Position numbers and translations under genes: made by a program. Below the pieces are notes generated by a model that saw only the letters and a list, made by a program, of their open reading frames with translations, was not told where the DNA came from and did not search any database. This document shows positions 1,682-28,275 of a stretch of DNA of 38,651 nucleotides, in pieces; the first letter of the stretch is position 1; each line of letters begins with the position of its first letter. This DNA comes from Pseudomonas sp. KBW05 (GTDB lineage Bacteria > Pseudomonadota > Gammaproteobacteria > Pseudomonadales > Pseudomonadaceae): positions 1 to 38,651 of the forward strand of contig NZ_QAJM01000040.1 of the NCBI RefSeq assembly GCF_003852405.1. Direction: 5' to 3'.

Positions 1682-1701
1682 CTATGGTCATTTGGTCGTA
1701 G
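1682..1701. promoter_or_regulatory. Candidate regulon site upstream of the aldehyde dehydrogenase
   Basis: CTATGGTCATTTGGTCGTAG lies about 109 bases before the aldehyde dehydrogenase start. It is a degenerate relative of the CTAGTCCCTTGGTAG motif found before pedF/pedE: the TTTGGT core and the outer CTA...TAG ends are kept, with longer spacing. It is the weakest of the six sites. Confidence 0.3.
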
Positions 1702-1703
1702 AA

Positions 1704-3479
1704 CTAGTGCTTGGCCACCAGCTCCTTGGGCAACTTGAAGGTCCAGAGCATGCCGCCCTGGTTGAAGTCCTTGACGCGCTTGGCCACTTCACCGCCCCAC
1801 AGCGGCACCGCGCCGCCCCAGCCGGAGACCACCGAGACGTACTGCTCGCCGTCCATGTCCCAGGTCACGGGCGAGCCGAGTACGCCGGAACCGGTCTGGA
1901 ATTCCCAGACTTTCTCGCCGGTCTTGGCGTTGAACGCTTGCAGAAAGCCTTCCGGCGTACCGGTAAATACCAGGTTGCCCTTGGTGGTCAGTACCCCGCC
2001 CCACAGCGGCGCGAAGTTCTTGTGGCGCCATACTTCCTTGCCGGTCTTCGGATCGATGGCGCGCAGCACGCCGATGTAGTCCTCGTTCAACGGTTTGATG
2101 GTGAAGCCCGCACCGAGGAACGCCGCGCCTTTCTTGTAGGCGATGCCTTCGTTCCAGATGTCCATGCCCCACTCGTTGGACGGCACGTAGAACAGCCCGG
2201 TGTCACGGTTGTAGGCCATCGGCATCCAGTTCTTCGCACCGAGGAACGCCGGTGCGACAAACACCGAAGTGCCTTTGGTTTCACTGCCCGGCGCGCCAGG
2301 ACGGCTGGCTTCGTTGTAGATCGGCCGACCGTTTTTATCCAGGCCGGTGGCCCAGGTGATCTTGTCCACGAACGGGAAGCCGCGGATGAACTTGCCGTTG
2401 GTGCGGTCCAGCACGTAGAAGAAACCGTTACGATCGGCAGTGGCGGCGGCTTTGATTTCCTTGCCGCCCTCGGTGTAGTTGAACGAGACCAGTTCGTTCA
2501 CGCCGTCATAGTCCCAGCCGTCGTGGGGCGTGCTCTGGAAGTGCCACTTGATAGTGCCGTCGTCCGGGTTCAGCGCCAGGCGCGAGGACGAATAGAGGTT
2601 GTCGCCCGGGCGCAGGTGGGAGTTCCACGGCGCCGGGTTGCCGGTGCCGAACAGCAGCAGGTTGGTTTCCGGGTCGTAGTAGCCGCCCAGCCAAGGCGCG
2701 GCGCCGCCGGTCTTCCACAGGTCGCCGGGCCAGGTCTTGCCCGCCTCGCCGCCGGAGATACCGTTCTCCACCGCCTTGCCGTCCTTGTACACGTAGCCCA
2801 TATGGCCTTCGACGGTCGGACGGCTCCACAGCAAGTCACCGTTTTTCGGGTCGTAGGCTTCGATCTTGCCGACCACGCCGAACTCGCCACCGGCCACGCC
2901 GGTGATCAGCTTGCCGTTGATGACCAGGGGCGCGGCGCTGATGGAGTAGCCTTCCTTGTGGTCGGCGACTTTCTTGCTCCACACCACTTTGCCGGTGTCC
3001 TTATTAAGCGCCACCAGCTTGGCGTCGAGGGTGCCGAAGAACACCAGGTCGCCGTACAGCGCCACGCCACGGTTAATCACGTCGCAGCAAGGGCGGATGT
3101 CGTCGGGCAGGCGCGCGTCGTATTGCCAGAGTTTCTTGCCGGTGCGCGCATCCACCGCAAACACCCGCGAGTAGGAACCGGTGAGGTACATCACCCCGTC
3201 CTTGACCATCGGCTGCGCCTGCTGGCCGCGCTGTTTCTCGCCACCAAAGGAAAACGCCCAGACCGGGCGCAGGTCCTTGACGTTGTCGACGTTCAGCGTG
3301 TCCAGCGGGCTGTAGCGCTGGCCCTGCACGCCGAGGCCGTTGGTGACGATCTGCTCGGGGTTTTTCGGGTCCTGGAGAATGTCCTGGTCGGTGACAGCGG
3401 CCAGGGCCTGGCCGGATAACAGGATGGCACCGAGCAACACACTCAAGGCGAAGGGTTGGCGACGTGCGGGTTGGGTCAT
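1704..3479 (-). CDS. pedH: Lanthanide-type PQQ-dependent alcohol dehydrogenase
   Basis: A 591-residue periplasmic quinoprotein that oxidises primary alcohols and passes electrons to a cytochrome c. It has a signal peptide ending near LSGQALA, the vicinal cysteines of RPCCD that contact PQQ, and repeated propeller tryptophan motifs. The catalytic segment reads GWDYDGVNE: catalytic Asp is residue 323 and residue 325 is also Asp. In XoxF and PedH enzymes that second Asp is the established marker of rare-earth rather than calcium use. The paralogue at 6875 has Ser at this position. An AGAGG-type ribosome site precedes the ATG. It follows the metallohydrolase by about 107 bases, a gap holding a TATAAC box and a large dyad, so it probably has its own promoter. 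Metal assignment is inferred from the residue signature. Confidence 0.93.
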
Positions 3480-3502
3480 GACGGCTACCTCTGCGGTTTT
3501 TT

Positions 3503-3508
3503 GTTATA
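3503..3508 (-). promoter_or_regulatory. Putative -10 box of pedH
   Basis: On the reverse strand this reads TATAAC, 24 bases before the pedH ATG. The hexamer 17 bases further upstream is CCAGAC, a poor -35 match, as expected for a promoter that needs an activator. Confidence 0.4.
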
Positions 3509-3509
3509 C

Positions 3510-3526
3510 CCGGGAAATTTTCCCGG
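3510..3526. promoter_or_regulatory. Dyad CCGGGAAATTTTCCCGG in the pedH promoter
   Basis: A 17-base inverted repeat, perfect around its central T, directly upstream of the putative TATAAC box and filling the spacer between -10 and -35. A related dyad (CGGGAAGTCTTCCCG) lies before pedE, and I did not see it elsewhere in the cluster. A protein bound here would block RNA polymerase. PedR2 is the natural candidate because in P. putida it switches pedE and pedH in opposite directions; this link is inference. Confidence 0.5.
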
Positions 3527-3586
3527 TCTGGTGCAGATTCTTGGGCGCAGGGGCCATTGTCACAATTGACCGCAGTATCGAGTTTG

Positions 3587-3601
3587 CTAGTTCCTTAGTA
3601 G
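3587..3601. promoter_or_regulatory. Candidate regulon site upstream of pedH
   Basis: CTAGTTCCTTAGTAG matches the pedF/pedE site CTAGTCCCTTGGTAG at 13 of 15 positions and lies about 115 bases before the pedH start. It overlaps the last codons and the TAG stop of the metallohydrolase gene, so the same bases are both coding and possibly regulatory. Confidence 0.5.
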
Positions 3602-4516
3602 CGGGTGCATCTGTTCGCGCTCGTAGCGCGGGTACAGGTGGCTGACGCTGCGGATCAGCTCATAGCGGCTCAGGCTGATCGCGGCAAAGCGCTCGGGGAT
3701 GGGGCTGCGGATCATCTCAGTCATGTCGCTGCCGCTGGCGGCGCCGTCGCGCAGCAGTTGATCGAGCCACGTCAGGTAGTCGCGCATCTGTTCGAAGGGT
3801 TGCGCATCCGTGGCGATCGGGCCGTGGCCGGGCACTACCAGGGTCCAGGGCAAACCTTGCAGGGTGGTGATGTCGGCCAGCCACGCGGCGAGTCCGGGGC
3901 TGTTGGGCGTGGTCAGGGCGCGCTGGTAAAACACCAGGTCGCCGGCGAACAACACGCCGGTGCTCTGGTCGAGAATCGCCAGGTCGGCGCCGGTGTGGCC
4001 GGTCAACGCCAGCAGGCGCAAATCGTGGTTGCCGAAGCTGCGCACGCCGGGCTCCAGCACTTCGCTGGGCAACACCACTTCGGTGCCGCGCATCCAGTCG
4101 CCGACCATGCGGTAGAGGTTTTCCGCCATGCCGTCGCCCTGCTCGTGCAGCAGCTTCGTGGTGTCGGCCAGGGCGCCGATGGGCACATCCTTGAACGCCT
4201 GGTTGCCCAAGGCATGGTCGGGGTGATGATGGGTGAGCAACACCTGGATTACCGGTTTCGCGGTAACGCTGGCGATGGCCTGGCGCAGCGCTTCGCCGTA
4301 GCGCCTGGACGGCCCGGTATCGATCACCACCACGCCAGCGTCGGTGACGATAAACGCCACATTGACGATATTGCCGCCATTGGCCTTGGCGAAGTTGTCG
4401 GTGCTGCCTTCCAGCAGCCAAGTGCCCTCGGCGATCTGCCGGGGTTTGAGGGCGTAGTCCATGTCGGCCAGGGCGGGCAGGCAGAGGCCCAGGCAGAACA
4501 ACAGTATCCAGCGCAT
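3587..4516 (-). CDS. Quinoprotein-relay zinc metallohydrolase (metallo-beta-lactamase fold)
   Basis: A 309-residue exported metallo-beta-lactamase-fold protein. The chosen start (MRWILLF) gives a signal peptide ending near ALAD, and a good AAGGAG ribosome site lies before it; an upstream in-frame ATG at 4600 would run into the preceding gene. The metal site is clear: THHHPDH at residues 95-101, later GHTGADL, the FAGDL aspartate, and a C-terminal VPGHGP histidine. It lies 16 bases behind the SoxYZ-like gene and is read with it. Families of this kind recur beside PQQ alcohol dehydrogenases and are annotated as quinoprotein relay hydrolases, but their substrate is not known to me. The context suggests periplasmic work with the SoxYZ-like carrier, perhaps hydrolysis of a carrier-bound thioester or persulfide (inference). 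Confidence 0.85.
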   Translation of the reverse strand: MRWILLFCLGLCLPALADMDYALKPRQIAEGTWLLEGSTDNFAKANGGNIVNVAFIVTDAGVVVIDTGPSRRYGEALRQAIASVTAKPVIQVLLTHHHPDHALGNQAFKDVPIGALADTTKLLHEQGDGMAENLYRMVGDWMRGTEVVLPSEVLEPGVRSFGNHDLRLLALTGHTGADLAILDQSTGVLFAGDLVFYQRALTTPNSPGLAAWLADITTLQGLPWTLVVPGHGPIATDAQPFEQMRDYLTWLDQLLRDGAASGSDMTEMIRSPIPERFAAISLSRYELIRSVSHLYPRYEREQMHPLLRN

Positions 4517-4532
4517 GCCGCGCTCCTTCTGG

Positions 4533-6154: not shown

Positions 6155-6157
6155 GGC

Positions 6158-6619
6158 TTACTCCTCGACGCGCACGGAATCCAGGTAAGTACGCACTGCC
6201 CACAGGGCTTCCTGGCTCAGGTAGTCGGCCATTTTCGGCATGTACACGCGGCCGTCACGCACGGCACCGTGGCGCACCCGTTCGACAAACCACTCATCAC
6301 CCGCGTCGCCTTCATCAAGCATGCGCAGGTCCGGCGCGATACCCCCGGACTTGGCTTCCAGCCCGTGGCACGCGGCACAGTTCTGGTTGTAGGCGGAGGA
6401 ACCGATTTCGACAGCCTTGTCGTGCTCAGGGGACTTGCGATACGGGTTGTTGGCCGCCCAACCGTCGCCGTCGAGCGGCACGCCCGCGTCCTTGATCGGC
6501 GTCAGGCCTTTGGTTTCCACCGCCTGCGGTACCACGTTGCCATGGGCCCACACTGCGCCCACGTTGATCACACCCACCAGCAGGCCGGCCACGAGCAAGG
6601 CTTTGCGTTTTGTTGTCAT
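6158..6619 (-). CDS. pedF: Cytochrome c550, electron acceptor of the PQQ alcohol dehydrogenase
   Basis: A 153-residue periplasmic c-type cytochrome (ExaB/PedF). It has a signal peptide ending in AVWAH, one haem site CAACH at residues 81-85, and a likely axial Met in the MPKM segment near residue 130. It accepts electrons from the reduced quinoprotein and hands them to the respiratory chain. The start at 6619 is chosen because a GAGAGGA ribosome site lies before it; an ATG eight codons upstream lacks one. It heads the leftward run pedF, binding protein, SoxYZ-like, metallohydrolase. It is divergent from pedE, with which it shares a 255-base regulatory gap. Confidence 0.9.
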   Translation of the reverse strand: MTTKRKALLVAGLLVGVINVGAVWAHGNVVPQAVETKGLTPIKDAGVPLDGDGWAANNPYRKSPEHDKAVEIGSSAYNQNCAACHGLEAKSGGIAPDLRMLDEGDAGDEWFVERVRHGAVRDGRVYMPKMADYLSQEALWAVRTYLDSVRVEE

Positions 6620-6723
6620 TATTTTTGTCCTCTCAGATTGCACGCAAACCTCATTGCAGAGGCTATGGCAACCATCTTAGGAACCCCCAGGGATACACCG
6701 TATGCTGCTTTGGTGGCCGCGCT

Positions 6724-6741
6724 CTAGTCCCTTGGTAGTAG
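6724..6741. promoter_or_regulatory. Candidate regulon site CTAGTCCCTTGGTAGTAG
   Basis: An imperfect dyad (CTAGT... against ...TAGTAG) roughly midway between pedF (centre about 113 bases from its ATG) and pedE (about 142 bases). Near-copies lie upstream of pedH, the ABC operon, the CXXXCW gene, the FIST gene and, more weakly, the aldehyde dehydrogenase. LuxR-type regulators bind such dyads; AgmR/PedR1, encoded in this cluster, is the likely reader by inference. Confidence 0.5.
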
Positions 6742-6774
6742 GGCTTGTGGGGCACAGCTAAATCAGCGGCGGTT

Positions 6775-6789
6775 CGGGAAGTCTTCCCG
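6775..6789. promoter_or_regulatory. Dyad CGGGAAGTCTTCCCG upstream of pedE
   Basis: A perfect inverted repeat around a central T, about 93 bases before the pedE ATG. It shares CGGGAA...TTCCCG with the dyad in the pedH promoter. Confidence 0.45.
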
Positions 6790-6796
6790 GCAACAG

Positions 6797-6810
6797 CGGG
6801 AATTTTTCCG
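6797..6810. promoter_or_regulatory. Second, imperfect dyad CGGGAATTTTTCCG upstream of pedE
   Basis: It starts 22 bases after the start of the first dyad, that is two helical turns, so both would face the same side of the DNA. One position of the arms does not match. Confidence 0.35.
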
Positions 6811-6874
6811 TATCCAGCCACCGCCCCGGCGCACCACCCTGTGCAGGCCAAAACCTCCACTGGGAACTGCAACC

Positions 6875-8773: not shown

Positions 8774-8785
8774 CCTTTAGCTAAT

Positions 8786-8800
8786 GCGGGGCCCGCTTTT
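8786..8800 (+). terminator. Possible weak terminator after pedE
   Basis: GCGG-GGC-CCGC followed by TTTT, beginning 13 bases after the pedE stop. The stem is only 4 base pairs and the T-run is short, so partial read-through into the pentapeptide gene is likely. Confidence 0.3.
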
Positions 8801-8920: not shown

Positions 8921-8931
8921 GAGGTTCCGTG

Positions 8932-9579: not shown

Positions 9580-9612
9580 AACACCCCATTTCGATCTGTG
9601 AACCCCATCCAC

Positions 9613-9701: not shown

Positions 9702-9723
9702 TAAGCTCGGTCCCGCAGGGCAA

Positions 9724-11385
9724 TCAGAACGCCTTGCTGACCTGCGCCCACACCCGAGGCGTGCGCGCCACGTCGCTTTGCGGATCAGCATTGCCAACAC
9801 GCCACGCGGCAACCGTGTTCAAGCGCCAGCCGCCCGCACTCCAGTTAGCGCCAACCCCGGTCGCCGACAGGCTGCGATGGTTCTCGCCATCGGCCCAGGT
9901 GTCCTTGTTCAAGCGCACGGCACCGTGGTCGACAAACGTCAGCAGGTTCCACTGCTCGGTCAACGCATAACGCAGTTCCAGGTTGGCCACGTAACCCTGA
10001 TCCCCGGACGCTTCACCCTGCGGATACGCACGCACACCGTACGCGCCACCCAGGCTGATCTTCTCGGAGGAGTCAAGGTTGCCATCGGCCCACTGTCCCT
10101 GCACTTGCCCATACAAACTGAAGCGTTCGCTCAAGCGTTGCAGGCGTACTACGCTCGGGTTGATCTTCTGGAAACGCCCGGCGGTCTTGGCGGTGAGGCC
10201 GTCGTACAGCTTGTCGAACTGACCGTCGAGGTTCAGGCTGCCTTCGCTCCAGGCCAGCGAGAAGGCACTGACGCCGCCGCCCAGCAGGTTGTCGCGCAGG
10301 TTGCCGTCGAGGCTGGTGGTGATCACCCGTGCCTGCTTCTTGCTTTTCGACTCGTAGAGGTCGATGTCATCGCGCAGGTGTTTGTGGTCGTACTGCACCT
10401 GGGCATTCAGGCTGAACGCACGGGTGCGGATCAGCGGCTGCTGCACAAACACCGTGGCGATGCGCGCATTGCCCTTGGCGTCGAGTTCGTCGAAGTCCTT
10501 GGCCAGTTGGTAGTCCATGTCCGAATAGGCCACGCCGACTTGGGTCGACCACGGCCCAATCGGCAATTGATACGCCGCGCGGTAGTAGTGCTGGTCTTCG
10601 TCGCTGCCCATCACCCGCACGCTGGCCTGGTCGCCCAGGCCCAGCGGGTTGGCCAGGTTCAGCGTACCGCCCAGGCGGTATTCGCCGGTGAAGCGGTTGC
10701 CGTAGTTGTCCAGATCGACCTGGCCGGAGAGCAGCGCTGCGTCCTTGACGTCCACCACCAGATCAGTAGCGCCGACGGCGGTGCCCGGTTGCAAGGTGGA
10801 GTGCACCGTAACGCCCGGCGTCTGTTGCAGCAGCAGCAAACTGCGCTCCAGCGGCGCGGCGTGCACCGCCTCGCCCGGTTGCAGCGCCGCCAACGGCTGG
10901 CGCAGGGCGAAGTCGCGCATGCGCGATTGGTTGTTGATCTTGACCTGACCGTATTGGCCTTCGAGCACGCTGATGGTGACCACGCCCTTGTCGATTTCCT
11001 GCGCAGGCAAATAGGCGCGGGCCAGCGGGTAGCCTTTCTGGCGATACAGCGCGGTGATCCGCGCCGCACCGGCCTGCAACTCGCCGAGGCTGACCACGCG
11101 GTTTTGCAGGTCGGCCAGCAGCGGCAGCAATTCGTCACTGGCGATGGCGGTGTTGCCGGACACGGTGAAGCCGTTGACCTGCAAGGTCGGGCCGGACACC
11201 TTTGGTGTGGTGTCCGGCGCTTCCGGCAGGTTCAGCTCCAGGGTCTGCTTGGGCGGTAGCTCCAGCGGCTGGTTCTGGATGTCACGGATCGACTGCCCCG
11301 CATCCGGGGCCCGTTCGGCGCCGTGGGCGGCGCCGGCAAAGGTGGTGAGCAAGGCAAGCGCGATAGGGTTTAAACGCAAACGCAT
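9724..11385 (-). CDS. TpsB outer-membrane transporter (ShlB/FhaC/HecB family)
   Basis: A 553-residue outer-membrane protein that exports the TpsA adhesin encoded just upstream. After a signal peptide (ending AAHGA) and a proline-rich linker comes a POTRA domain beginning near LQVNGFTVSGNT (about residue 68), a second periplasmic segment with ARAYLPAQEI and VLEGQYG, and then a 16-strand barrel. The conserved loop-6 motif is present as GVRAYPQGE around residue 450, and the protein ends in an aromatic residue (KAF), as barrel proteins do for BAM recognition. Its ATG lies 3 bases after the tpsA stop, so both are read as one leftward operon in tpsA-tpsB order. Length fits the family. Confidence 0.92.
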   Translation of the reverse strand: MRLRLNPIALALLTTFAGAAHGAERAPDAGQSIRDIQNQPLELPPKQTLELNLPEAPDTTPKVSGPTLQVNGFTVSGNTAIASDELLPLLADLQNRVVSLGELQAGAARITALYRQKGYPLARAYLPAQEIDKGVVTISVLEGQYGQVKINNQSRMRDFALRQPLAALQPGEAVHAAPLERSLLLLQQTPGVTVHSTLQPGTAVGATDLVVDVKDAALLSGQVDLDNYGNRFTGEYRLGGTLNLANPLGLGDQASVRVMGSDEDQHYYRAAYQLPIGPWSTQVGVAYSDMDYQLAKDFDELDAKGNARIATVFVQQPLIRTRAFSLNAQVQYDHKHLRDDIDLYESKSKKQARVITTSLDGNLRDNLLGGGVSAFSLAWSEGSLNLDGQFDKLYDGLTAKTAGRFQKINPSVVRLQRLSERFSLYGQVQGQWADGNLDSSEKISLGGAYGVRAYPQGEASGDQGYVANLELRYALTEQWNLLTFVDHGAVRLNKDTWADGENHRSLSATGVGANWSAGGWRLNTVAAWRVGNADPQSDVARTPRVWAQVSKAF

Positions 11386-11388
11386 GAA

Positions 11389-14300
11389 TCAGAGTCCTTC
11401 TGGAAGGCGCAGGCCTTGGTCAACGAGGGTATAGAGGTCGGACGGCAGTTGCGGTGCGCTACGGACCGGCGTCATCGGCACCTGCGGCAGGTTGCGCAGC
11501 GGCTGCACTTGCTCGGCCACGGTGTTGGCGGGCGGTGTATCAACGCTCAGCACGCCATCGGTGTAGGCGATGACGTAGTTGTTGGCGGACAAGCCCGAGG
11601 CGCTGACGCTGTATTGCCCGCGGTCGGAGGCTGACGTCGCCGTGGTGCTGAACGCCAGGTTGCCGCTCAGCTCCTGGCTGGCGGTGTCGGCGCCCAGCAG
11701 CCCCTGATAGGTGGCGACGAACAGCGGGTTGCCCTGCCCCTGCAGTTTCTGGCTGTTGGCGACACCCACGCTCAGCGTCGCCTTGCCGATATCTGCGGTG
11801 GTGCTGCTACTGGCGCCCAACAGGTAGTTGCCCGCATCGCTGCCGCCCAAGGTGATCCCGCTGACCGTCACGGTTTTACCGCTGCCGGCATTTTTATCGC
11901 TGAACGCGCCGTTGGCGGACACCACCGACAGATCATCTCCGCTCACCAGCCCGGTAAAGCCTGCTCCGGCGAGATTCAACGTGGCGGCGGTGGTGGCGTC
12001 GTAGACCTTGTTTTCGGCGGTGATGCCGTTGACGGTCAGGGCCTTGGCGATGATCGAAGCGCTGACGCCGGTGGGGTTGCTGAGGCTGTAGTTGCTCGCC
12101 AGCCCCGTGCCGTCCACCAGGCTTGCGCCGCTGACGTTGACGGTTTTGCCCATGCCGGCGTTTTTGTCGCTGAACGCGCCACTAAGGCCACCGAAGCCCA
12201 GGGTTTCGCTACCGACCAAACCGTCGAGCGTGCCGCCACTGAGGGTTGCGGCGGTAGTGCCGTCATAGACCTTGCCACCGGCGATGATGCCGGTGAGGGT
12301 CAGGGCCTTGGCGGTGATCGCCGCCGTGACACTGGCCGGGTTGCTGATGCTGTAGTTGCTCGCCAGGCCCGTGCCATCGGACAGGGTCGCGCCGCTGATG
12401 CTCACGGTTTTGCCGGTGCCGGCGTTCTGGGTGTCGAACTCGCCGGTGAGGCCGCTGAGTGTCAGGGTTTCGCTACCGACCAGGCCGTCAAGCGTGGCGC
12501 CGCTGAGGGTTGCGGCGGTGCTGCCATCGTAGACCTTGCCGTTGGCCGTCACGCCCGTCACCGTCAGGGCTTTGGGGGTGATGTTCGCGGTCACGTCCGT
12601 CGGAGAGATCAGGCTGTAGTTGCTGGCCAGGCCCAAGCCATTGAGCAGGGTTGAACCGAGCGTGACGGCTTTGCCGACACCGACATTGCTGTCGTCAAAC
12701 TGAGCAGTCAAAACAACGCCGAGGCTTTCACCGGCGACCACCCCAGAAAGGGTAGCGCCCGTCAGCCAAGCCCCGCGAGTGCCGTCATAGACCTTGTCGC
12801 CAGCGGTCACACCGGTGAGGGTCAAAGCCTTGGGCGTGATGCTGGCCGTGGTCGTGGCCACGTTGTCGGCGAAGCTGTAGTTGGCCAGGTCGGCGCCGGC
12901 CAGTGTAATGCCGCTGACCGTCACGCCCTTGCCGCTGCCGACGTTGGCGTCGCTGAACTGCGCAGAACCGCTGGCGAACGTCAGGTCATCGCCAGCGATT
13001 TTGCCGTTGAGGGTCGCGCCCAAGGCACTGAATGCCGCGCTGGCATTGCCGTCATAGACCTTGCTTGCTGCTACCAGACCGTTGACGCCACTGATGACTG
13101 CCTGGGTGATGGTCCCGGCGAAGGTTTGCGGGACGTCGAAGTTGTAGTTGACGCTGGGCACGTTGGAACTGGTCAGATCAACCTGGCCCAGGGTCACGGT
13201 CTTGCCGGTGCCGGCATTTTTATTGTCGAAGTTGCCGGTGAACTGCAGCACCAGGTTGTCCGTGCCGATCAGGCCATGGAGGACCGCGCCGGTGAGGGTC
13301 ACGAAGGTGCTGCCGTCATAGACCTTGTTGGCTGTCAGGCCGGTGACGGTCAGGGTCTTTTGCTTGATGGTGCCGGTCACCGGGCTGATCGCCAGCGGGC
13401 TGAGGCTGTAGTTGCTGGCCAAGCCGGTGCCATCGCCCAAGGTGGCGTTGACCTGCACGCTTTGCAGCGCGGCGTTCGGCGTGCTGAACTGCCCGGTCGC
13501 GCTCACGGTCAACTGCTCGCCGGCGGCCAGGCCATGGAGGATGCCGCCGCTGACGACGGCATCGGCGTTGCCGTCGTAGACCTTGCTGTTCACCACCAGG
13601 TCGGTGAGGGTCAGGGCCTTGACGGTAATGTCGGCGCTCAACGGGCTGCCGCTGTCGAAAATGTAGTTGCCGGCAGACGCGCCATCCAGGCCCAGGTCAA
13701 CCTGGATGCCGGTGCCGACGTTTTTGCTGGCATAGGTGCCCGTGACGGCCACCTGGCCCACATCGCGGTTCGCCAGGCCGACCAGCGTGCCGCCGCCGAC
13801 AGTGGCGACGGTGGTGCCATCGTAGGCCTTGCTGCTGGCGGTCATGCCGGTCTGGCTCAGCGCCGCCTTGGCCACGTCCAGGGTACCGTCGATGTAGTTG
13901 ATCGAGTAACCGTACTGCCCACCGGATGAGGTCAGGCCGCCCAGTTGCAGCGCGTGGGTCCCGGCGTCGATGGTGCTCTGCCCGGCGCCAACCAGCCCGA
14001 GCGTGCCGCTGACCCGCGAGTCGCCTGGGCCGGAACCGGTATAGCTGACGTTATGCGCCAGGCCATCGTAGGTTTTGCTGGCGCTGTCGGCGATGTAGGT
14101 GAGTTGCGTCATGAAGCTGCGCAACAGCGGGCCGGACACGCCGTCGTAGACCACCCAGGTGTTTTTCAGGTCCCAGCCGGCGGCGGCGAAGGCGGATTGG
14201 GAGAGGACTTGGTCACTGGACAGGCCACCGGCGGTGCTGCGGTTTCCACCGCCGCCACGGTCGTAGAGTTGCCCGGTCGCGGCCACATCCCAGAGGTTGC

Positions 14301-17300
14301 CGGCCAACGTGGTGTTGCCTTCGCCGACCAGCGCGCCCACGCTGGTGCTGGTGACTGGCACGCTAACACGGCCACTGGCAAAGCTATTGGACAGCACACT
14401 GTTATCCATGTGCCCCACCAGGCCACCAATGAAAAACCACTGCCCCGTCACACTGCCGCTGCCATAGGCATTGCTGAGCGTCGCGCGGCTCATGCGCCCC
14501 AGCAGCCCGCCAACCCCATAGGTACCCGACACCGATGCCGTGGAAAAAACGTTGGTCACACTGCCCTGGCTGAATCCGACCAAGGCCCCGGTGAATTCAC
14601 GCCCGCTGATGCTGCCACCTTCAAGGCCCAGGTTACTGATCGTCCCCGTCGACGAAAGGTTGGTGAACAAGCCGGTATAAGCATTTCCCAACCGGCTGAT
14701 CGTCAGCCCCTTGATCACATGCCCATTGCCATCGAGGTTACCGCTGAACGTTCCGGCGGTGCCGCCCAAGGCCATGAAACTCGAATCCCACACGTTGGTG
14801 GTACCCGCCGTGGCGCTTGCGTCAATGTCACGGCCCAAGGTGTAGTTGGCCGTCATGTCCATCGCCACCAACTGCAACTGGTGGGCATTGGTGAGGGTGG
14901 TGGAATACTCCGAGGCGAGCATCGGCAACGTGCTGCTCGCGTCGGAGTTGACGATCACCCACGCGTTGCCTGCCTGGCCCGGGGTGCTGCTGAAATTGAA
15001 CCCGCTGAAGCTGCCGGCGTTCTTCATTTGCCCGAAGGTCAAGCCCACCGCCGAGCCGGCGCCGACGCTGCCGGAACTCAAACCATTGCCCTGCCCCGAC
15101 AGCCCTGGGTTGGCGCTGAGGTTGTAATAGCCGTTGACCAGGGAGCCGCCGCTGTGTCGGCCAATCAGGCCGCCGGACTCACCCCCGGTGACGATGCCCG
15201 TGGCGTAGGCGTTGGCAATCGAGCCGCCATTGAGTCCGACCAGGCCGCCATTGTTGGAGGGATAGGACAACGAGCCCGTGACCGAACCGGTGCTGTAGAC
15301 ATTCGCCAGGCTGCCGCGGTTGATCCCGACCAGACCGCCACTGTAACTGCCGCTGCCTGCAGCGTTGAAGCTGACATTACCTGTGGCGTAGCTGTTGGTG
15401 ACTTGGCCACCGGCTTCGTTTTCCCCCACCAGGCCGCCGGCGGCGCCACCGCCGATGACGTTACCGGTGGCGTAGCTGTTGGTGATAGTGCCGGTGGCTT
15501 TGTTCCAGCCCACCAACCCGCCGTTGTACTGGGAGTTTTCAGTGCTGGTCACTGAACCGGAGGCGGAACTGCCGCTGATCGCGCCTTCGTTCCACAGCAC
15601 CAGACCGGCCAGGGTCATGGCTTTAAGGCCGATCACATCGCCGGTGGAGTAGCTGTTGATGATCTGCCCGCTCGCGGTGTTCAGCCACACCAGGCCACCT
15701 GCGCCGGCGTAGTCCTTGTCAGTCACCGTGCCGCTGAACGAACTGTTGCGGATCGTGCCGGCGTTGGTGCCCACCAACCCGCCCAGTTGCGCGCCATTGC
15801 TGGCCGACACGGCGGTGCTGGCGTAGCTGTTTTCCACCAGGCCGAGGTTATGGCCGACCAAGGCGCCGATATTGAAATACGCCGGGAAGTCACCGTCGGA
15901 GTCGCCCACCAGGTTCACTGCGCCGCCCACCAGGCCGACGTTGCGCACCACACCGCTACTGCCCACTGCGGCAAACAGGCCGCTATCGCTTTCGACGTGG
16001 CTGATTTGCAGGTTGCTGATGGTGTGGCCCAAGCCATCGAAAATGCCGGTGTAGCCGCCGCCCGCGACGGTGCCCAGCGAGTCGAAGCCCGCGCCGCCAT
16101 TCCACGCCACCGTGGCGGCAGCATTGATATTCGCGCCGAGCACGAAGTTGCCGCTCAGCGCGCCGTTGATCCCTTGCAGGTCCAGGCCGGTGACGCTGCC
16201 CATCGCGCCGAGGCTGGTGATCACGGTGTAGTCGATCTGCGTGCCGTCGCTGCCCTGCTTGGTGCTGTAGTGCTGCCCGGCTGACAAGTTGACCGGCGCC
16301 TTAACGTTGACGCTGCTGGTATTGCCCGCCGCGACCGCGCCCTGGCCATAGTTGACCGCCAGCTTGGCGGTGCCGGAGCCGAACATTTCCTTGTTGATAT
16401 TGACGTTGTTCTGCGCGGTGAGGGTCAGCGTGTTGGCGCTCCAGACCACGGTGTCGTTGACGTTGACATTGCCTTGGGTGCCCGTCAGCCCCTGGGTGCT
16501 CTGGATCTCGAAATCATTGGTCTTGAGCGCCTTGGTCACGGCCGTGCCGGTCATGTCGCCACCCGTGGCGGCAATGGTGAAGTCCACCGGGTCGATCAGC
16601 CATTTGCCGGTCTTGCCCTTGGCCGCTGCCGTGGTGATCTCTGCCGTATCGGCCACCTTGACATGGGCGCCCGAGGTTTCGATAAACCCGCCATTGCCAG
16701 CCACCGGCGCCGACGCATCCAGCGTGCCTGCGACCTGTACCGTGCCACCGTCAAAGCCGCCGAGCAGGACGATCTTGCCGCCCTTTTCGCCCAGGGTTTG
16801 CGCTTCGATCACGCCGGTGTTGTTGACCACCGTCTGCAACAGCGCATCGCTGGCCTTGGCGGTCATGATCACCTGGCCGCCGTTGGCCTGGATCAGTTGT
16901 TTGTTTTCCACCAGGGCATTCTTGGTGGCTTCATCGACCTGCACGTTGAGCAGGCCGTCACCGGCAAAATCCAGGGTGACTTTATTGCCCGCCGCCAGGG
17001 CCACGGTGCCGAGCTTGGCGGCGATCACACCCTGGTTGCTCACGGTGCCGCCGAGCAGCGCCACGGCGCCGCCGTCAGCGGCCTTGATCGAGCCCTGGTT
17101 GACCACGCTGGCGGTACTGCCCTTGCCGTCGAACTTGTAATTGCCGGCGGCAAAATCGCTGTTGGATATATCCAGCGTCGAGGCCACCAGCCCGCCGACA
17201 TCCACCGACGAGCCTTTGGCGAACAACACACCATTGGGGTTGACCAGGAACACCTGGCCGTTGGCATTCAACTGACCCATGATTTTCGAGCCGTCGGTGC

Positions 17301-17679
17301 CGACCACGCGGTTCAGCGCCACCGAGTCCTTGCCCGGTTGCACAAAGGTGACTTTCTTGTCGGCGCCGATGTTGAAGCTTTGCCAGTCGATGGCCAGTTT
17401 GTTGGAGGACTGGTTGATGATCATCTGTTGCTGATCAGGGGTGAGGATCTGGCCGCTGCCGAGGACCACTTGGCCGCCGGTGGGCAGGTCGGCGGCAGAG
17501 GCGCCAACCGGTGCCAGGACAAGTGCAATGGCCAGCGCCAACGCGCGCAACGGGCCCTTTTGCTCAGGGGTTTGAACCGCGCCAACCGAGGTGCGCTTGC
17601 CGTGTCGGCTGGCGTGTTCGCTGGCAACCACCCACGCGCTAAGACTGTGATTCCAGATCACGCTGAAAATGCGGTTCAT
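11389..17679 (-). CDS. TpsA filamentous-haemagglutinin-like exoprotein with GLUG and YDG repeats
   Basis: A 2,096-residue secreted or surface-bound adhesin exported by the neighbouring TpsB. The start at 17679 is chosen because it opens an extended signal peptide region (MNRIFSVIWNHSLSAWV, ESPR type) with a hydrophobic core ending ASAADLP. The TPS secretion domain follows (about residues 64-310) with the NPNGV motif. About residues 525-1010 carry GLUG-type repeats (GGLVG, NSYATG). About residues 1195-1895 carry nine YDG repeats, each opening with a K(V/A/T)YDG-like motif. Near residues 1966-2045 is an MBG-like domain, then a proline-rich tail. I see no cysteine after the start, typical of TPS cargo. 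No RGD, toxin or CDI module is visible, so adhesion or biofilm matrix is the best guess. Confidence 0.92.
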   Translation of the reverse strand: MNRIFSVIWNHSLSAWVVASEHASRHGKRTSVGAVQTPEQKGPLRALALAIALVLAPVGASAADLPTGGQVVLGSGQILTPDQQQMIINQSSNKLAIDWQSFNIGADKKVTFVQPGKDSVALNRVVGTDGSKIMGQLNANGQVFLVNPNGVLFAKGSSVDVGGLVASTLDISNSDFAAGNYKFDGKGSTASVVNQGSIKAADGGAVALLGGTVSNQGVIAAKLGTVALAAGNKVTLDFAGDGLLNVQVDEATKNALVENKQLIQANGGQVIMTAKASDALLQTVVNNTGVIEAQTLGEKGGKIVLLGGFDGGTVQVAGTLDASAPVAGNGGFIETSGAHVKVADTAEITTAAAKGKTGKWLIDPVDFTIAATGGDMTGTAVTKALKTNDFEIQSTQGLTGTQGNVNVNDTVVWSANTLTLTAQNNVNINKEMFGSGTAKLAVNYGQGAVAAGNTSSVNVKAPVNLSAGQHYSTKQGSDGTQIDYTVITSLGAMGSVTGLDLQGINGALSGNFVLGANINAAATVAWNGGAGFDSLGTVAGGGYTGIFDGLGHTISNLQISHVESDSGLFAAVGSSGVVRNVGLVGGAVNLVGDSDGDFPAYFNIGALVGHNLGLVENSYASTAVSASNGAQLGGLVGTNAGTIRNSSFSGTVTDKDYAGAGGLVWLNTASGQIINSYSTGDVIGLKAMTLAGLVLWNEGAISGSSASGSVTSTENSQYNGGLVGWNKATGTITNSYATGNVIGGGAAGGLVGENEAGGQVTNSYATGNVSFNAAGSGSYSGGLVGINRGSLANVYSTGSVTGSLSYPSNNGGLVGLNGGSIANAYATGIVTGGESGGLIGRHSGGSLVNGYYNLSANPGLSGQGNGLSSGSVGAGSAVGLTFGQMKNAGSFSGFNFSSTPGQAGNAWVIVNSDASSTLPMLASEYSTTLTNAHQLQLVAMDMTANYTLGRDIDASATAGTTNVWDSSFMALGGTAGTFSGNLDGNGHVIKGLTISRLGNAYTGLFTNLSSTGTISNLGLEGGSISGREFTGALVGFSQGSVTNVFSTASVSGTYGVGGLLGRMSRATLSNAYGSGSVTGQWFFIGGLVGHMDNSVLSNSFASGRVSVPVTSTSVGALVGEGNTTLAGNLWDVAATGQLYDRGGGGNRSTAGGLSSDQVLSQSAFAAAGWDLKNTWVVYDGVSGPLLRSFMTQLTYIADSASKTYDGLAHNVSYTGSGPGDSRVSGTLGLVGAGQSTIDAGTHALQLGGLTSSGGQYGYSINYIDGTLDVAKAALSQTGMTASSKAYDGTTVATVGGGTLVGLANRDVGQVAVTGTYASKNVGTGIQVDLGLDGASAGNYIFDSGSPLSADITVKALTLTDLVVNSKVYDGNADAVVSGGILHGLAAGEQLTVSATGQFSTPNAALQSVQVNATLGDGTGLASNYSLSPLAISPVTGTIKQKTLTVTGLTANKVYDGSTFVTLTGAVLHGLIGTDNLVLQFTGNFDNKNAGTGKTVTLGQVDLTSSNVPSVNYNFDVPQTFAGTITQAVISGVNGLVAASKVYDGNASAAFSALGATLNGKIAGDDLTFASGSAQFSDANVGSGKGVTVSGITLAGADLANYSFADNVATTTASITPKALTLTGVTAGDKVYDGTRGAWLTGATLSGVVAGESLGVVLTAQFDDSNVGVGKAVTLGSTLLNGLGLASNYSLISPTDVTANITPKALTVTGVTANGKVYDGSTAATLSGATLDGLVGSETLTLSGLTGEFDTQNAGTGKTVSISGATLSDGTGLASNYSISNPASVTAAITAKALTLTGIIAGGKVYDGTTAATLSGGTLDGLVGSETLGFGGLSGAFSDKNAGMGKTVNVSGASLVDGTGLASNYSLSNPTGVSASIIAKALTVNGITAENKVYDATTAATLNLAGAGFTGLVSGDDLSVVSANGAFSDKNAGSGKTVTVSGITLGGSDAGNYLLGASSSTTADIGKATLSVGVANSQKLQGQGNPLFVATYQGLLGADTASQELSGNLAFSTTATSASDRGQYSVSASGLSANNYVIAYTDGVLSVDTPPANTVAEQVQPLRNLPQVPMTPVRSAPQLPSDLYTLVDQGLRLPEGL
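12000..14090 (-). repeat. Nine tandem YDG repeat units inside tpsA
   Basis: The reverse complement of the YDG codons (GTCGTAGACCTTG and close variants) recurs at about 11999, 12262, 12528, 12784, 13049, 13316, 13574, 13820 and 14065, a period of roughly 245-267 bases (82-89 residues). The units starting near 12262 and 12528 are the most alike in DNA, with shared runs in the TLDGLVGSETL segment, which suggests recent duplication. Confidence 0.85.
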
Positions 17680-17875
17680 GACTGAGTCGTCCCTGAGACT
17701 AAAATGGCACCGTGCCATTACTTGTAGGACAATTCTGCATTGGTGCAACGGGTTTGTATGCGTGGAGAAACGAAAAAGTTCCGTTAAACGCCAATATTTA
17801 CACTTCTTTGGATCCAAATAGCGGTTTCTGATTGGCCGCGCATATCAATAGCATTAAACCCATCATTCAAACCTA
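17680..17875. promoter_or_regulatory. Upstream region of tpsA
   Basis: A 196-base, comparatively AT-rich gap between the response-regulator stop and the tpsA start, both read leftward. It holds the perfect dyad at 17703-17719 and no obvious intrinsic terminator for the two-component genes, so some read-through into tpsA is possible. Confidence 0.45.
17703..17719. promoter_or_regulatory. Perfect dyad AATGGCACCGTGCCATT before tpsA
   Basis: Eight-base arms around a central C, 23 bases before the tpsA ATG, so probably within the leader or core promoter. It could be an operator or a messenger hairpin next to the ribosome site. It contains TGGCAC but not the downstream TTGC of a sigma-54 promoter. 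Confidence 0.4.
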
Positions 17876-18502
17876 TCATCCCGCCACCCTGACCACCCCC
17901 AGATCAATCCCCACATGCACCAGTTCGGCATGGGAACTCACCTGCAACTTGCTCTTGAGCAGCGTCAGGTGGTTGGACACGGTCTTGCTGCTGATACTCA
18001 ACTGCTCGGCAATCTGCCGAGCCGGGGTGCCTTTGGCGAGCATCAGGAAAATCTCCAGCTCGCGCGGGGTCATGCTGTGCAGGCGCGGGTCGGCAGCCTG
18101 ACAGGCAAGCTGGGTGGCCAGGGGCTGTTCGATGTAGGCGTGGCCGTCAAGGATGCGCCGCACCGCTTCGATCAACACCTGGGGCGCCGAGATTTTGGTC
18201 AGGTAGCCCGCCGCGCCGGCGTCCAGCGCCTGGCGTACCAGGGGCAGTTCATCGTGCATGCTGAAAAACAGCACGCGCAGTTGCGGCAAGCGCTGGCGCA
18301 GGCGCCGGGTGGTTTCCAGGCCGCTGATGCCGGGCAGGCCAAAATCCATGATCACCAGGTTCGGCACCGCTTCGTGCACCCGTGCCATGGCCTCTTCGCC
18401 ACTGGCCGCCTCGCGCACTTCAATCGCCGGCAGCAACGCGCGCAGCAGGCTGGCGTAGCCCTGGCGCACCACGGCGTGGTCATCCACCAACAGAATATTC
18501 AT
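17876..18502 (-). CDS. pedR2: LuxR/NarL-family response regulator, PedR2/EraR-like
   Basis: A 208-residue response regulator. The receiver shows the acidic pair VDDH at residues 6-9, phosphoacceptor Asp53 in VIMDFGLPG, and the conserved Lys in YLTKI. A C-terminal LuxR helix-turn-helix follows (TPRELEIFLMLAKGTPARQIAEQL, with SSKTVSNHLTLLKSKL as recognition part). Its start overlaps the stop of the kinase gene by ATGA, so the pair is translationally coupled. The position near pedE and the pentapeptide gene matches PedR2 of P. putida and EraR (ExaE) of P. aeruginosa. In P. putida PedR2 activates pedE and represses pedH when lanthanides are absent. Orthology is inferred from context. Confidence 0.8.
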   Translation of the reverse strand: MNILLVDDHAVVRQGYASLLRALLPAIEVREAASGEEAMARVHEAVPNLVIMDFGLPGISGLETTRRLRQRLPQLRVLFFSMHDELPLVRQALDAGAAGYLTKISAPQVLIEAVRRILDGHAYIEQPLATQLACQAADPRLHSMTPRELEIFLMLAKGTPARQIAEQLSISSKTVSNHLTLLKSKLQVSSHAELVHVGIDLGVVRVAG

Positions 18503-19761: not shown

Positions 19762-19763
19762 GC

Positions 19764-19880: not shown

Positions 19881-20036
19881 GATCGTTCAACCCCCACACC
19901 GGACACTGGAGCCCCATGCTAAGACCCCGCCGCGCGCAGCGAGCTACTACCTTGATACTGCCCCAGCGCTACTTTCTGCATATTTGCAGGGGTAGCGGGG
20001 CTTTATATGCTGTCGCCACCTGTCATGGAGTGCCCT
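19881..20036. promoter_or_regulatory. Divergent promoter region of the two-component genes and the ABC operon
   Basis: A 156-base gap with one copy of the regulon motif (19944-19960). An imperfect dyad around 19962-20000 (CCCCAGCGCTAC...GGGGTAGCGGGG) could form a hairpin before the ABC operon start. Confidence 0.5.
19944..19960. promoter_or_regulatory. Candidate regulon site CTACTACCTTGATACTG
   Basis: Centred about 85 bases before the start of the ABC operon. It shares CTACTAC...TACTG with the site before the CXXXCW gene, which lies at almost the same distance (about 88 bases) from its ATG. Confidence 0.5.
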
Positions 20037-21227: not shown

Positions 21228-21237
21228 GGAATACGCC

Positions 21238-23713: not shown

Positions 23714-23714
23714 T

Positions 23715-23731
23715 CTACTACTTTGGTACTG
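23715..23731. promoter_or_regulatory. Candidate regulon site CTACTACTTTGGTACTG
   Basis: It begins 2 bases after the permease stop and is centred about 88 bases before the CXXXCW gene. It is the clearest sign that the CXXXCW gene and agmR have their own promoter rather than depending only on the ABC operon. Confidence 0.5.
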
Positions 23732-23810
23732 GTTTTCCTGTCTATCGTCGCATTCCCAAGGCAGTGGGACTGGCGTGTAATGGCGGCATAACGATAAGGA
23801 TTGACCCGCC

Positions 23811-24350: not shown

Positions 24351-24377
24351 AAAACCACAACAAGAAGGTGAACGGCC

Positions 24378-25043
24378 ATGTACAAAATCCTGATCGCCGA
24401 CGATCACCCGCTGTTTCGCGAAGCGATCCACAACGTGATCAGCGACGGTTTCCCCGGCAGCGATGTAATGGAAACCGCCGACCTCGACAGCGCCCTCGCC
24501 CTGACCCAGGACCACGACGACCTCGACCTGATCCTGCTGGATTTGAACATGCCCGGTATGCACGGCCTCAATGGCCTGATCAACCTGCGCAACGAATCGC
24601 CGACCATCCCGGTGGTGATCGTCTCGGCCGAGCAGGACAAGCAGATCGTGCTGCAAGCCATCACCTACGGCGCCGTGGGGTTTATCACCAAGTCGTCGCC
24701 GCGCCTGCAAATGACCGAGGCGATCCAACAAATCCTCAACGGCAACGTGTACCTGCCGCCCGACATCATCCGCACCCAGAAAAACCCCAACCAACGGCGC
24801 ATGAACGACGCGCCAGGCTTCGCCCCGGAACTGTTGCAGGCCCTGACGCGCAAGCAGTTGCTGGTGCTGGAGCGGATGACCAAGGGCGAGTCGAACAAGC
24901 AGATTGCGTACACCCTGGAGATTGCCGAGACCACGGTGAAGGCCCATGTGTCGGCGATATTGCGCAAGTTGAATGTGCATAACCGGGTGCAGGCGATCCT
25001 GAGTGCCGGCGACATCGACTTCGGCTCGTACTTGCGCCGCTGA
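24378..25043 (+). CDS. agmR: LuxR-family response regulator AgmR/ErbR/PedR1
   Basis: A 221-residue regulator starting [20 protein letters not shown], as in P. aeruginosa AgmR (ErbR) and P. putida PedR1. The phosphoacceptor is Asp55 in [10 protein letters not shown], the conserved Lys lies in GFITKSSP, and the LuxR helix-turn-helix is [26 protein letters not shown]...[11 protein letters not shown]. AgmR is the global activator of PQQ-dependent alcohol oxidation, controlling the dehydrogenase, its cytochrome and PQQ genes. An AGAAGGTGA ribosome site is clear. The candidate dyads upstream of six transcription units in this window would be its natural targets, which is inference. No adjacent kinase is on the same strand; the hybrid kinase at 25175 converges on it. 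Confidence 0.9.
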
Positions 25044-25067
25044 TCCCAGAGGCATAGGGAGATCCAC

Positions 25068-25157
25068 TGTGGGAGCGGGCTTGCTCGCGAATGCGGTGGG
25101 TCAGTCACTAGATTCATTGACTGACCCACCGCATTCGCGAGCAAGCCCGCTCCCACA
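25068..25157. repeat. REPIN between converging agmR and the hybrid kinase
   Basis: TGTGGGAGCGGGCTTGCTCGCGAATGCG pairs almost perfectly with its reverse complement across 90 bases; the inner part GGTGGGTCAGTCA...TGACTGACCCACC also pairs. A long, near-perfect palindrome that could serve as a bidirectional terminator. Confidence 0.9.
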
Positions 25158-25174
25158 TTTTGATCTGCGTTTTG

Positions 25175-27118: not shown

Positions 27119-28205
27119 TGAATTGTTCTCCGTAGGTGTTGAAACCCAGCACCCGTTGGCCTTGCAGGTAGTTGCCGATCTGTTCCAGGTTGCCGTTGTC
27201 TTCCAGCTCCATGCGCCGCAGGAAGCAGTCGCAGCCGATGGTCAGCAACAGGTCGCCGAGGCGCGCTTGCAGGCCATCGAACAAGTCTTGCAGGTTGGGC
27301 AGGATCGGGCCCGGTTGCATCAGGGTCAGCACAATGCCGTTCTCCACCGCACAGTAGAAACTCAGGCTGAGATCGTCATGCACCTGCTGGATCGCGCGCA
27401 CGTAATACTGGTCGTGGATGCGCACCGCCAGCGGGTGGGCGGCGAAGGTGCGATGGTCAAGGTCGGCCACCGCCACGCCGATGTGCCGCGCGTACTCTTC
27501 GGCGGCGGGTTCGGCATTGAGCTCAAAGACCCGGCGTGACGGGCTGTCGGCACCGGTCACCACCAGTTTTTCCGTGCGCGGCAGGATGTGGTGGGTGGTG
27601 AACACCTCGAAATCCAGCCAGGTATTGACCAGTACCACCACCGCCGCACCGCTGTGGAACACACCGTTGAAGTACACGTGGGTGTGGGTGAGGAAATTGT
27701 CGTCCCCGGCCGAGCCGCCGAAGTGCGGGATATCGCCAAGGGCGGCGCTGAGGGCGGCGAGCACCATCTCTTCACGGCTGGACAAGCCGTCGAGCAGGGT
27801 CAGTGCAAAGGTGTTGCCCTTGATCGGCGCCAGGGTGTTGCTGCGACAGCCGCCGACCAGGCGTTCGACCATGTCCTGGGCGCCGATCAGGCTGAAGTGC
27901 TCGACCTCGTCGATCAATTCGGTGGCGATGGAAAAGTGCGCGTGGTTGAAACCCATCGCGGTGATGCAATTGCGCCCGTAGCCTTGGGGCGTGATCTCGC
28001 CGGCGCTGGTGCAGCCGACCACGCGCACATTGCCGAAGCACTGCTGCAAGGCCTGGCCGAGGGCCTGCAAGTCGTAGCCAGCGGAACAGAAAAACAGCAC
28101 GAAGCCCAGGTACGGATGCAGCAGTTGGCGGGCCAACTCTTCAGCGGCCTGCCCTGGATCGGTGGCCTGGGACATGGCGCTGACTACGCCTTCACTGTTG
28201 TGCAT
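27060..28205 (-). CDS. nosP: FIST-domain haem/NO sensor, NosP-like
   Basis: A 381-residue cytoplasmic protein with FIST N (about residues 25-220, with LGFVLFFCSAGYD, VVGCTSAGEI and HFGGSAGDDN) and FIST C domains (ending NGMHINQTFTGVAI). The start at 28205 is chosen for the AGAGGGGG ribosome site. In several Pseudomonas species NosP binds haem, senses nitric oxide and inhibits the partner kinase encoded next door. The genes overlap, which fits a sensor-kinase pair. It lies in the same strand order as PA1975-PA1976. Its upstream region carries a regulon-like dyad (28261-28275), so NO signalling and alcohol oxidation may share control. Haem binding is known for relatives and is not demonstrated here. 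Confidence 0.83.
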   Translation of the reverse strand: MHNSEGVVSAMSQATDPGQAAEELARQLLHPYLGFVLFFCSAGYDLQALGQALQQCFGNVRVVGCTSAGEITPQGYGRNCITAMGFNHAHFSIATELIDEVEHFSLIGAQDMVERLVGGCRSNTLAPIKGNTFALTLLDGLSSREEMVLAALSAALGDIPHFGGSAGDDNFLTHTHVYFNGVFHSGAAVVVLVNTWLDFEVFTTHHILPRTEKLVVTGADSPSRRVFELNAEPAAEEYARHIGVAVADLDHRTFAAHPLAVRIHDQYYVRAIQQVHDDLSLSFYCAVENGIVLTLMQPGPILPNLQDLFDGLQARLGDLLLTIGCDCFLRRMELEDNGNLEQIGNYLQGQRVLGFNTYGEQFNGMHINQTFTGVAIARGRR

Positions 28206-28260
28206 CGTTGGTTCCCCCTCTAAGGCGTCAGTGTACGAAGGCCGGGGGGTGGGCCCTATG

Positions 28261-28275
28261 CTACTTGGGTACTGG
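28261..28275. promoter_or_regulatory. Candidate regulon site upstream of the FIST gene
   Basis: CTACTTGGGTACTGG lies about 63 bases before the FIST gene start. It shares ACTTNGGTACTG with the CXXXCW-gene site (11 of 12 positions), in the opposite orientation to its gene. Confidence 0.4.

Follow-up and report, generated by a model that had tools for sequence, protein, structure and literature searches.

A conserved 7-2-7 dyad before the ped alcohol-oxidation genes of Pseudomonas, a probable AgmR operator, and a second dyad at pedH and pedE

Do the promoters of the ped alcohol-oxidation cluster share an operator and, if so, which regulator reads it? We addressed this question in Pseudomonas sp. 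KBW05 (GCF_003852405.1), in a window of 38,651 nucleotides that is one whole contig (NZ_QAJM01000040.1) of a Pseudomonas-like genome and bears the cluster. A first-pass annotation of this DNA had proposed that one imperfect dyad recurs before six transcription units and that AgmR (PedR1, ErbR), a LuxR-type regulator encoded in the same cluster, is its most natural reader. We find that the six dyads are all present where they had been placed and are copies of one inverted repeat, box A, and we consider it likely, with a probability of about 0.75, that box A is the operator of phosphorylated AgmR, through which the ped units would undergo class II activation on alcohol. A second dyad, box B (CGGGAA-N3-TTCCCG), which the earlier annotation had missed, marks the two alcohol dehydrogenase genes, pedH and pedE.

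Box A before the ped transcription units

Box A is a 7-2-7 inverted repeat, TACTACC-WW-GGTAGTA, within the 18-mer CTACTACCWWGGTAGTAG; this 18-mer, rather than the core CTAGTCCCTTGGTAG given earlier, is the true unit. Its copies in the window are as follows.

1684..1701, minus strand: box A of pedI, the aldehyde dehydrogenase gene, in the divergent form CTACGACCAAATGACCAT; -10-like GCATAC at 1660-1665; score 5.8
3587..3604, minus strand: box A of pedH, overlapping the stop codon of the upstream metallo-hydrolase open reading frame (ORF); -10-like CAATTG at 3563-3568; score 18.6
6724..6741: box A between the divergent pedF (minus) and pedE (plus); -10-like GCATAC for pedF at 6700-6705; score 24.0
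19944..19961: box A between the divergent pedS2R2 (minus) and pedA1A2BC (plus); -10-like CATATT at 19979-19984 (pedA1) and TAGCAT at 19916-19921 (pedS2); score 14.3
23715..23732, plus strand: box A of the rhodanese-agmR unit; -10-like GCATTC at 23750-23755; score 23.5
28258..28275, minus strand: box A of the FIST-pedS1 unit; CCAGTACCCAAGTAGCAT; -10-like TACACT at 28230-28235; score 6.8

The outermost two had been drawn as 1682-1701 and 28261-28275, and their spans are corrected here. The pedH and pedF/pedE copies agree at exactly 13 of 15 positions (3587-3601 versus 6724-6738), as had been claimed, and the centre-to-ATG distances check out as well (pedI 109.5, pedF 113.5, pedH about 115, pedA1 85 and the rhodanese gene 88 bases). 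The count of six holds for the dyads but not for the transcription units, which number about eight because two dyads sit between divergent genes: pedI, pedH, pedF, pedE, pedS2R2, pedA1A2BC, rhodanese-agmR and FIST-pedS1. The pedS2/pedA1 dyad at 19944-19961 reads TTGATA in the window and TTGGTA in the orthologs listed, a strain-specific change of a core base.

We compared these promoters across ortholog loci, taken as the best 80 of 563 pedE relatives, so that distant species are under-sampled. We excluded upstream regions that fell short of 120 bases or contained ambiguous letters, as well as BLAST matches that start more than 40 residues into the protein, and merged near-identical upstream regions (for example, pedI from 59 to 30 and the rhodanese gene from 55 to 38). 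Gene names follow the order in P. putida KT2440 as given in PMC12997753, together with family matches, and the gene starts used include pedF at 6619 (ATG at the aligned position in 71/80 orthologs) and pedA1 at 20037 (36/42).

A de novo search by expectation-maximisation, run on the deduplicated regions with no site supplied, returned CTACTACCAAATAACGA for pedI (26/30) and CTACTACTTTAGTACTG for the rhodanese gene (38/38). Its best motif was another palindrome, box B, at pedH and pedE, a downstream block containing the -10 at pedA1/pedS2, and unrelated conserved sequence at agmR, pedD and pedR2. With a box A matrix refined from five seeds, and with scores above 9 counted as a box, the dyad was found in the deduplicated regions of pedI (24/30), pedH (25/31), pedF (25/26), pedE (24/25), pedS2 (18/25), pedA1 (21/21) and the rhodanese gene (38/38), and in none of those of pedD (0/30); the boxes found at agmR (4/27) and pedR2 (9/44) occur where the neighbouring gene went unmatched. 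Because the refined matrix was trained on the same promoters, we also made leave-one-promoter-out matrices and benchmarked them against the 99% level of dinucleotide shuffles, which the held-out scores exceeded for pedI in 23/30, pedH in 26/31, pedF/E in 24/26, pedS2/A1 in 21/21 and the rhodanese gene in 38/38.

Six control upstream regions of the same loci gave no score above 10 in 324 sequences (pedD 0/67, pedG 0/56, soxYZ 0/74, pedC 0/41, pedB 0/44 and pedA2 0/42); agmR (5/61) and pedR2 (15/64) had scores above 10, with a box lying directly upstream and the neighbouring gene unmatched. A scan of whole loci (1.58 Mb) with the first matrix gave 244 matches above 15, whereas 20 column-shuffled matrices gave 0-3 each; five named intervals account for 211 of the 244, and the remaining 33 lie mostly in the same promoters where the neighbour was unmatched. 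The motif is therefore conserved upstream of orthologous genes in other Pseudomonas ped loci, and this conservation supports the idea of a shared regulon signature that spans both dehydrogenases and the genes accessory to them as well as the ABC operon and the FIST/kinase pair.

Within the window itself, four sites score 14.3-24.0 on a balanced matrix, whereas the single best site of shuffled windows averages 9.0 with a maximum of 17.5 (60 shuffles). The pedI and FIST copies (5.8 and 6.8) are not significant in the window alone, where an unrelated coding position, 33550, scores 7.6, so these two rest on conservation. They had been called weak, which fits their scores in this strain but not their positions, which are conserved in orthologs. 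At pedI, 24/30 deduplicated orthologs have a good box at the position of the degenerate CTACGACCAAATGACCAT, with the same downstream GCAT-type hexamer. The FIST site is aligned in 12/12 same-genus loci with enough upstream DNA (13 loci including our own, one truncated); it lies 22 bases before TACACT in the window, in several loci another box, of variable sequence, stands 22 bases upstream of it, and its matrix scores are low throughout, from about -7 to 7.

Box A also extends beyond the family. In another family of the same order, sampled as the 30 best pedH matches among 34 matching genomes of 81 searched, it stands before pedH in 30/30 loci (score above 8), and in seven loci there that have pedH but neither pedE nor PedR2 it lies near pedH and pedF. 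A genome of a third family (G040) has a box scoring 17.0 about 113 bases before pedI. The regulon signature of the pedI, pedH, pedF and pedA1 promoters recurs in another family.

The position of box A is that of a class II activator site, just upstream of a -10-like hexamer. In alignments read by eye this hexamer starts about 16-23 bases after the 18-mer, which would put the dyad centre near -40. A crude -10 score with one offset per promoter agreed for pedH (24/26, offset 19), pedF (22/26), pedA1 (19/21) and pedS2 (17/18), and in the alignment GCATTC is conserved at both pedI and the rhodanese gene. The dyad between pedF and pedE is primarily that of pedF, because in several loci (L069, L072, L076, L078 and others) its distance to pedE grows to about 190-224 bases while its distance to pedF stays constant.

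AgmR and other candidate readers of box A

Two response regulators encoded in the cluster come into question.

24378..25043, plus strand: agmR (pedR1, erbR), NarL-type response regulator with Pfam Response_reg and GerE domains; proposed reader of box A
17876..18502, minus strand: pedR2 (exaE), LuxR-type response regulator with Pfam Response_reg and GerE domains; proposed, though not as sole, reader of box B

We propose that alcohols, once sensed, would lead to phosphorylation of AgmR, which would then bind box A as a dimer about 40 bases upstream of the transcription start, overlapping the -35 region. Bound AgmR would activate pedI, pedH, pedF (and pedE), pedS2R2, pedA1A2BC, rhodanese-agmR and FIST-pedS1. 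Box A before rhodanese-agmR would let AgmR activate its own unit, box A before pedS2R2 would place the lanthanide switch under AgmR control, and box A before pedH would make AgmR a candidate for the pedH activator, which the literature calls unknown. The dyad, its conservation, its spacing and its concentration in the cluster are properties of the DNA, from which we infer binding and phosphorylation of AgmR, class II activation and the start sites.

Published genetics is consistent with this proposal. PedR1, that is AgmR, is reported to be required for expression of pedE, pedF, pedI and pedS2R2 (PMC13390443), and the promoters of all of these carry box A. Six ped promoters are described as responding to 1,3-butanediol, and in E. 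coli the pedS2R2 promoter gave its highest response, among three sensors, when PedR1 was supplied (PMC13390443). Together with the likeness of its recognition helix to that of the presumed CrbR and the persistence of box A in loci without PedR2, this makes AgmR the natural reader, as the first-pass annotation had suggested, as far as can be judged from sequence and published genetics.

AgmR has a receiver and a LuxR-type (GerE) domain, as NarL-type regulators do, and its closest solved chain is NarL. Operators of NarL and NarP consist of two inverted heptamers that begin with TAC and are separated by a two-base spacer (7-2-7), which is also the architecture of box A in its matrix and its per-promoter consensus. 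The box A heptamer, TACTACC, compares with TACYYMT for NarL, and the regulon differs. Box A is a further dyad of the NarL/FixJ type, and it is close to the known CrbR box. This box, the ACTU motif of CrbS/CrbR in P. fluorescens SBW25, is likewise an imperfect inverted repeat with TAC half-sites just upstream of an RpoD promoter, and a LuxR-type response regulator requires it for activation, as we propose for box A; at P. fluorescens acs it is the imperfect palindrome TACTACCATCGTCGAAT at -52 to -36 (PMC5715377). Unlike ACTU, box A favours the half-sites TACTACC/GGTAGTA rather than GTCGAAT, and its targets are alcohol-oxidation rather than acetate genes.

The similarity of dyad and promoter position (PMC5715377) raises the alternative that box A is a divergent form of ACTU with the acetate regulator CrbR (ErdR) as its main reader, which we judge unlikely. 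The presumed CrbR is a 44% AgmR paralog in the same genome with the recognition helix SEATIKAHVTAIFRKL, and the helix KAHV(S/T)AI(L/F)RKL is common to both proteins; the pedI copy in the window has a GTCGTA half; on the first matrix pedI (3.2) and FIST (2.0) score little above the acs site of the same genome (1.8); and ErdR has been described as controlling ethanol-oxidation genes (PMC9927353). However, the four strong sites score 12-24 on that matrix against 1.8 for acs and are related to, yet distinct from, the published 17-base ACTU sequence; the two weak sites do not separate from acs in this way. Genome-wide mapping of ErdR in P. aeruginosa on acetate is reported to have found acsA but not the ercS or agmR promoters (PMC9927353), and the published requirement is for PedR1 (PMC13390443). 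The similar helices, and the fact that what distinguishes the AgmR and CrbR boxes is mainly a single base in each half-site (TAC-TACC versus TAC-GACC), would also suit a target shared by AgmR, CrbR and possibly others, in which case box A would not be the box of one regulon; this is somewhat less probable still, given that on box A matrices the acs site, with 1.8 and 4.7, falls well apart from the four strong ped sites (12-24), if not from the pedI and FIST copies.

PedR2 as the reader is the least probable of these alternatives. It is a LuxR-type regulator whose gene lies in the cluster, pedE and pedH are among its targets (PMC6115532), and moderately lower expression of pedF and pedI has been reported in its absence (PMC13390443). 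Yet its recognition helix, SSKTVSNHLTLLKSKL, differs from that of AgmR; PedR1 is reported to be the only one of these regulators required at the pedS2R2 promoter, which bears box A (PMC13390443); and box A is kept in the seven other-family loci without a PedR2 ortholog. In those seven genomes the best PedR2 match has 31-38% identity to the family's own PedR2, compared with 79% in G103, a control genome that has the cluster (the second control, G110, is the query's own genome), whereas AgmR is 78-81% identical in the six of the seven loci whose fetched stretch includes it. Persistence of box A in these loci argues against PedR2 and leaves room for CrbR. On balance AgmR appears to be the best reader of box A, and PedR2 is disfavoured.

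A number of results weigh against AgmR as the reader of one regulon-wide box. The E. coli sensors are reported to have responded without added PedR1 too (PMC13390443), and the presumed CrbR, with a helix like that of AgmR, could read some sites. Conservation is inflated by closely related loci despite deduplication, and only 2/30 held-out pedI scores beat the best shuffle. Alignment did not place the FIST site in three FIST loci of other families, and a genome of a fourth family (G036) lacks the box before pedI. Crude -10 positions are scattered for pedI and pedE, with an implausible offset of 10 for the rhodanese gene. A genome scan with the consensus, the check that the annotation had put forward, gave no enrichment over the reversed control: 5 places (three in the cluster) against 9 in the own genome at up to three mismatches and, at up to two, 25 against 24 in 36 same-genus genomes and 29 against 55 in all 57 genomes. 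Nor is box A conserved at pqqA (10 of 25 pqq loci, those where pqqA was located); none precedes pqqF in the own genome, where the best score just upstream is 1.4; and on the side of the loci where yiaY lies (located in L013) scores reach no higher than 10.2.

Since genome-wide counts of the consensus show no enrichment, the case for box A is made by its location, spacing and conservation, and we rejected a genome-wide regulon called by consensus as uninformative. Of the 25 same-genus matches, 17 were placed in ped clusters by their neighbours and two more (G022) by their mutual spacing; the two own-genome matches outside the cluster score 15.0, inside a TonB-receptor-like ORF, and 0.1. The pqq operon is listed as an AgmR target in a review (PMC12997753) and departs from the rest of the reported AgmR regulon in having no conserved box A at pqqA, so that the effect of AgmR on pqq may be indirect. 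One pqqA match, CCCATCCCTTGGTAGGAG (14.5-14.9), was rejected: it overlaps the ribosome-binding site and is similar in two close relatives but not in seven others. Two copies of CTTGGTAG lie before the own-genome pqqA (1304-1355 of locus L086), the second overlapping the ribosome-binding site; copies of this type are similar in only two close relatives among the ten pqqA loci, and an in-frame upstream ATG would extend the own-genome PqqA.

Box B at pedH and pedE

Box B and its fixed geometry are the more surprising part of these results. The copies in the window are the following.

3511..3525, before pedH, palindromic: the pedH copy of box B, CGGGAAATTTTCCCG; 79 bases from the box A start, covering about +32 to +46 relative to the predicted transcription start
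6775..6789, plus strand: box B1 of pedE, CGGGAAGTCTTCCCG; the strong copy
6797..6811, plus strand: box B2 of pedE, CGGGAATTTTTCCGT; weaker, 22 bases after B1

With pedH-like loci below 70% identity left out (4/57), exact box B is present in 53/53 pedH loci, at a spacing from box A of 79 bases in 51 and 80 in one; box A of the remaining locus is below threshold. The other family has the same spacing, 79 in 25/30 loci and 80 in 5/30, and box B there is exact in 26/30, has a two-base spacer in three and carries one mismatch in one. The arms keep their sequence in 29/30 of these loci and the centre varies, which favours recognition as DNA over an RNA hairpin. A conserved A-rich tract (ATAACAAAAACCGCAGAGG-like; 3480-3500, minus strand) precedes the pedH ribosome-binding site and resembles the AAnAAnAA sites of Crc/Hfq.

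At pedE the offset between B1 and B2 is 22 in 74/76 loci, and the second copy ends in TTTTCCGT. A -10-like hexamer follows the TCC of B2 by 24-25 bases in 19/23 deduplicated Pseudomonas loci (23/25 had the anchor) and follows the second copy at the same distance in 7/9 other-family loci (L246 and L247 gave no anchor). In other-family loci L233-L239, a run of further TTTTCC repeats follows the first box B of pedE in place of the Pseudomonas two-copy array.

Across the deduplicated promoters, the scan found box B at pedH in 27/31 and at pedE in 19/25; the 21/26 pedF regions that scored contain the pedE copies, in the shared intergenic region. It was absent before pedI (0/30), the rhodanese gene (0/38), pedD (0/30) and pedR2 (0/44), and rare at pedS2 (1/25), pedA1 (1/21) and agmR (1/27). 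The strict palindrome CCGGGAARNTTTCCCGG has perfect matches in 5/57 relatives: at pedH in the own genome, in G004, G005 and G010 as far from box A as a pedH copy should be, and in G035. In the own genome, CSGGGAANNNTTCCSG is found exactly in four places, two of them in the cluster, and with up to one mismatch 38 times forward and 26 times reverse, against 19 and 14 for the control.

PedR2 is reported to activate pedE and to repress pedH without lanthanum (PMC6115532), and box B stands at both of these inversely regulated targets and mostly not at other cluster promoters. It lies at about -43 and -65 at pedE, upstream of the -10, and downstream of the predicted start at pedH, and this difference in position would explain the dual action of PedR2. 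However, box B is also found where a PedR2 ortholog is absent: it is kept at pedH in 7/7 PedR2-less loci (with a two-base spacer in L174), which weakens the case for a simple PedR2 site and means that another protein reads box B there or that reading of it has ceased. Where pedE, pedH and PedR2 occur together (seven loci), exact box B is at pedH in 7/7 and at pedE in 6/7; the pedE-only loci L246 and L247, whose distant PedR2 is 49-52% identical to the family's own, have it at pedE in 0/2, with near-copies visible by eye. Among 64 long Pseudomonas loci, exact box B occurs at pedE in 53/60 with PedR2 in the stretch and in 1/4 without, and those four may have PedR2 outside the stretch.

We tentatively suggest a two-box code, which we rate a real possibility at slightly less than even odds. 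Box A would confer alcohol induction, and the sign of box B would follow from where it stands: pedE would be activated through the tandem pair near -43 and -65, whereas the dyad at about +32 to +46, held 79-80 bases from box A across two families, would block pedH. Because box B persists at pedH without PedR2, the code would include a second factor that reads it there, possibly the missing lanthanide-responsive regulator of pedH.

The cluster and its meaning

On the minus strand the cluster comprises pedI, pedH, the metallo-hydrolase gene, SoxYZ, pedG and pedF; pedE and pedD follow on the plus strand, pedR2 and pedS2 on the minus, pedA1A2BC, the rhodanese gene and agmR on the plus, and pedS1 and FIST on the minus. 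Between pedD and pedR2 (9724-17817, minus strand) lies an inserted two-partner secretion pair, a TpsB-like ORF and a 2142-residue TpsA-like ORF with TPS and YDG domains. Of the 80 fetched loci, many of which end at 10 kb or at a contig end, only L004 has a tpsB match, and the near-identical L001 (Pseudomonas sp. CBZ-4; pedE 99%), the closest relative among those fetched, lacks it.

The literature names the regulators that matter for the cluster, and in the open literature, as far as accessible, we found neither AgmR nor PedR2 assigned an operator sequence: PMC13390443 nowhere uses motif, binding site or palindrom in its text, and PMC6115532 nowhere motif, binding site or consensus; the accessible part of the review PMC12997753 gives no motif for either protein; and no paper among the matches listed announces one.

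The ped cluster serves alcohol and solvent oxidation in pseudomonads, is a model for lanthanide use and is an engineering target, and the two alcohol dehydrogenases marked by box B are those that are swapped when rare-earth metals are present. Boxes A and B provide exact bases to mutate, together with a candidate activator of pedH, and the geometry of box B turns the dual action of PedR2 into a positional hypothesis that can be tested with reporters.

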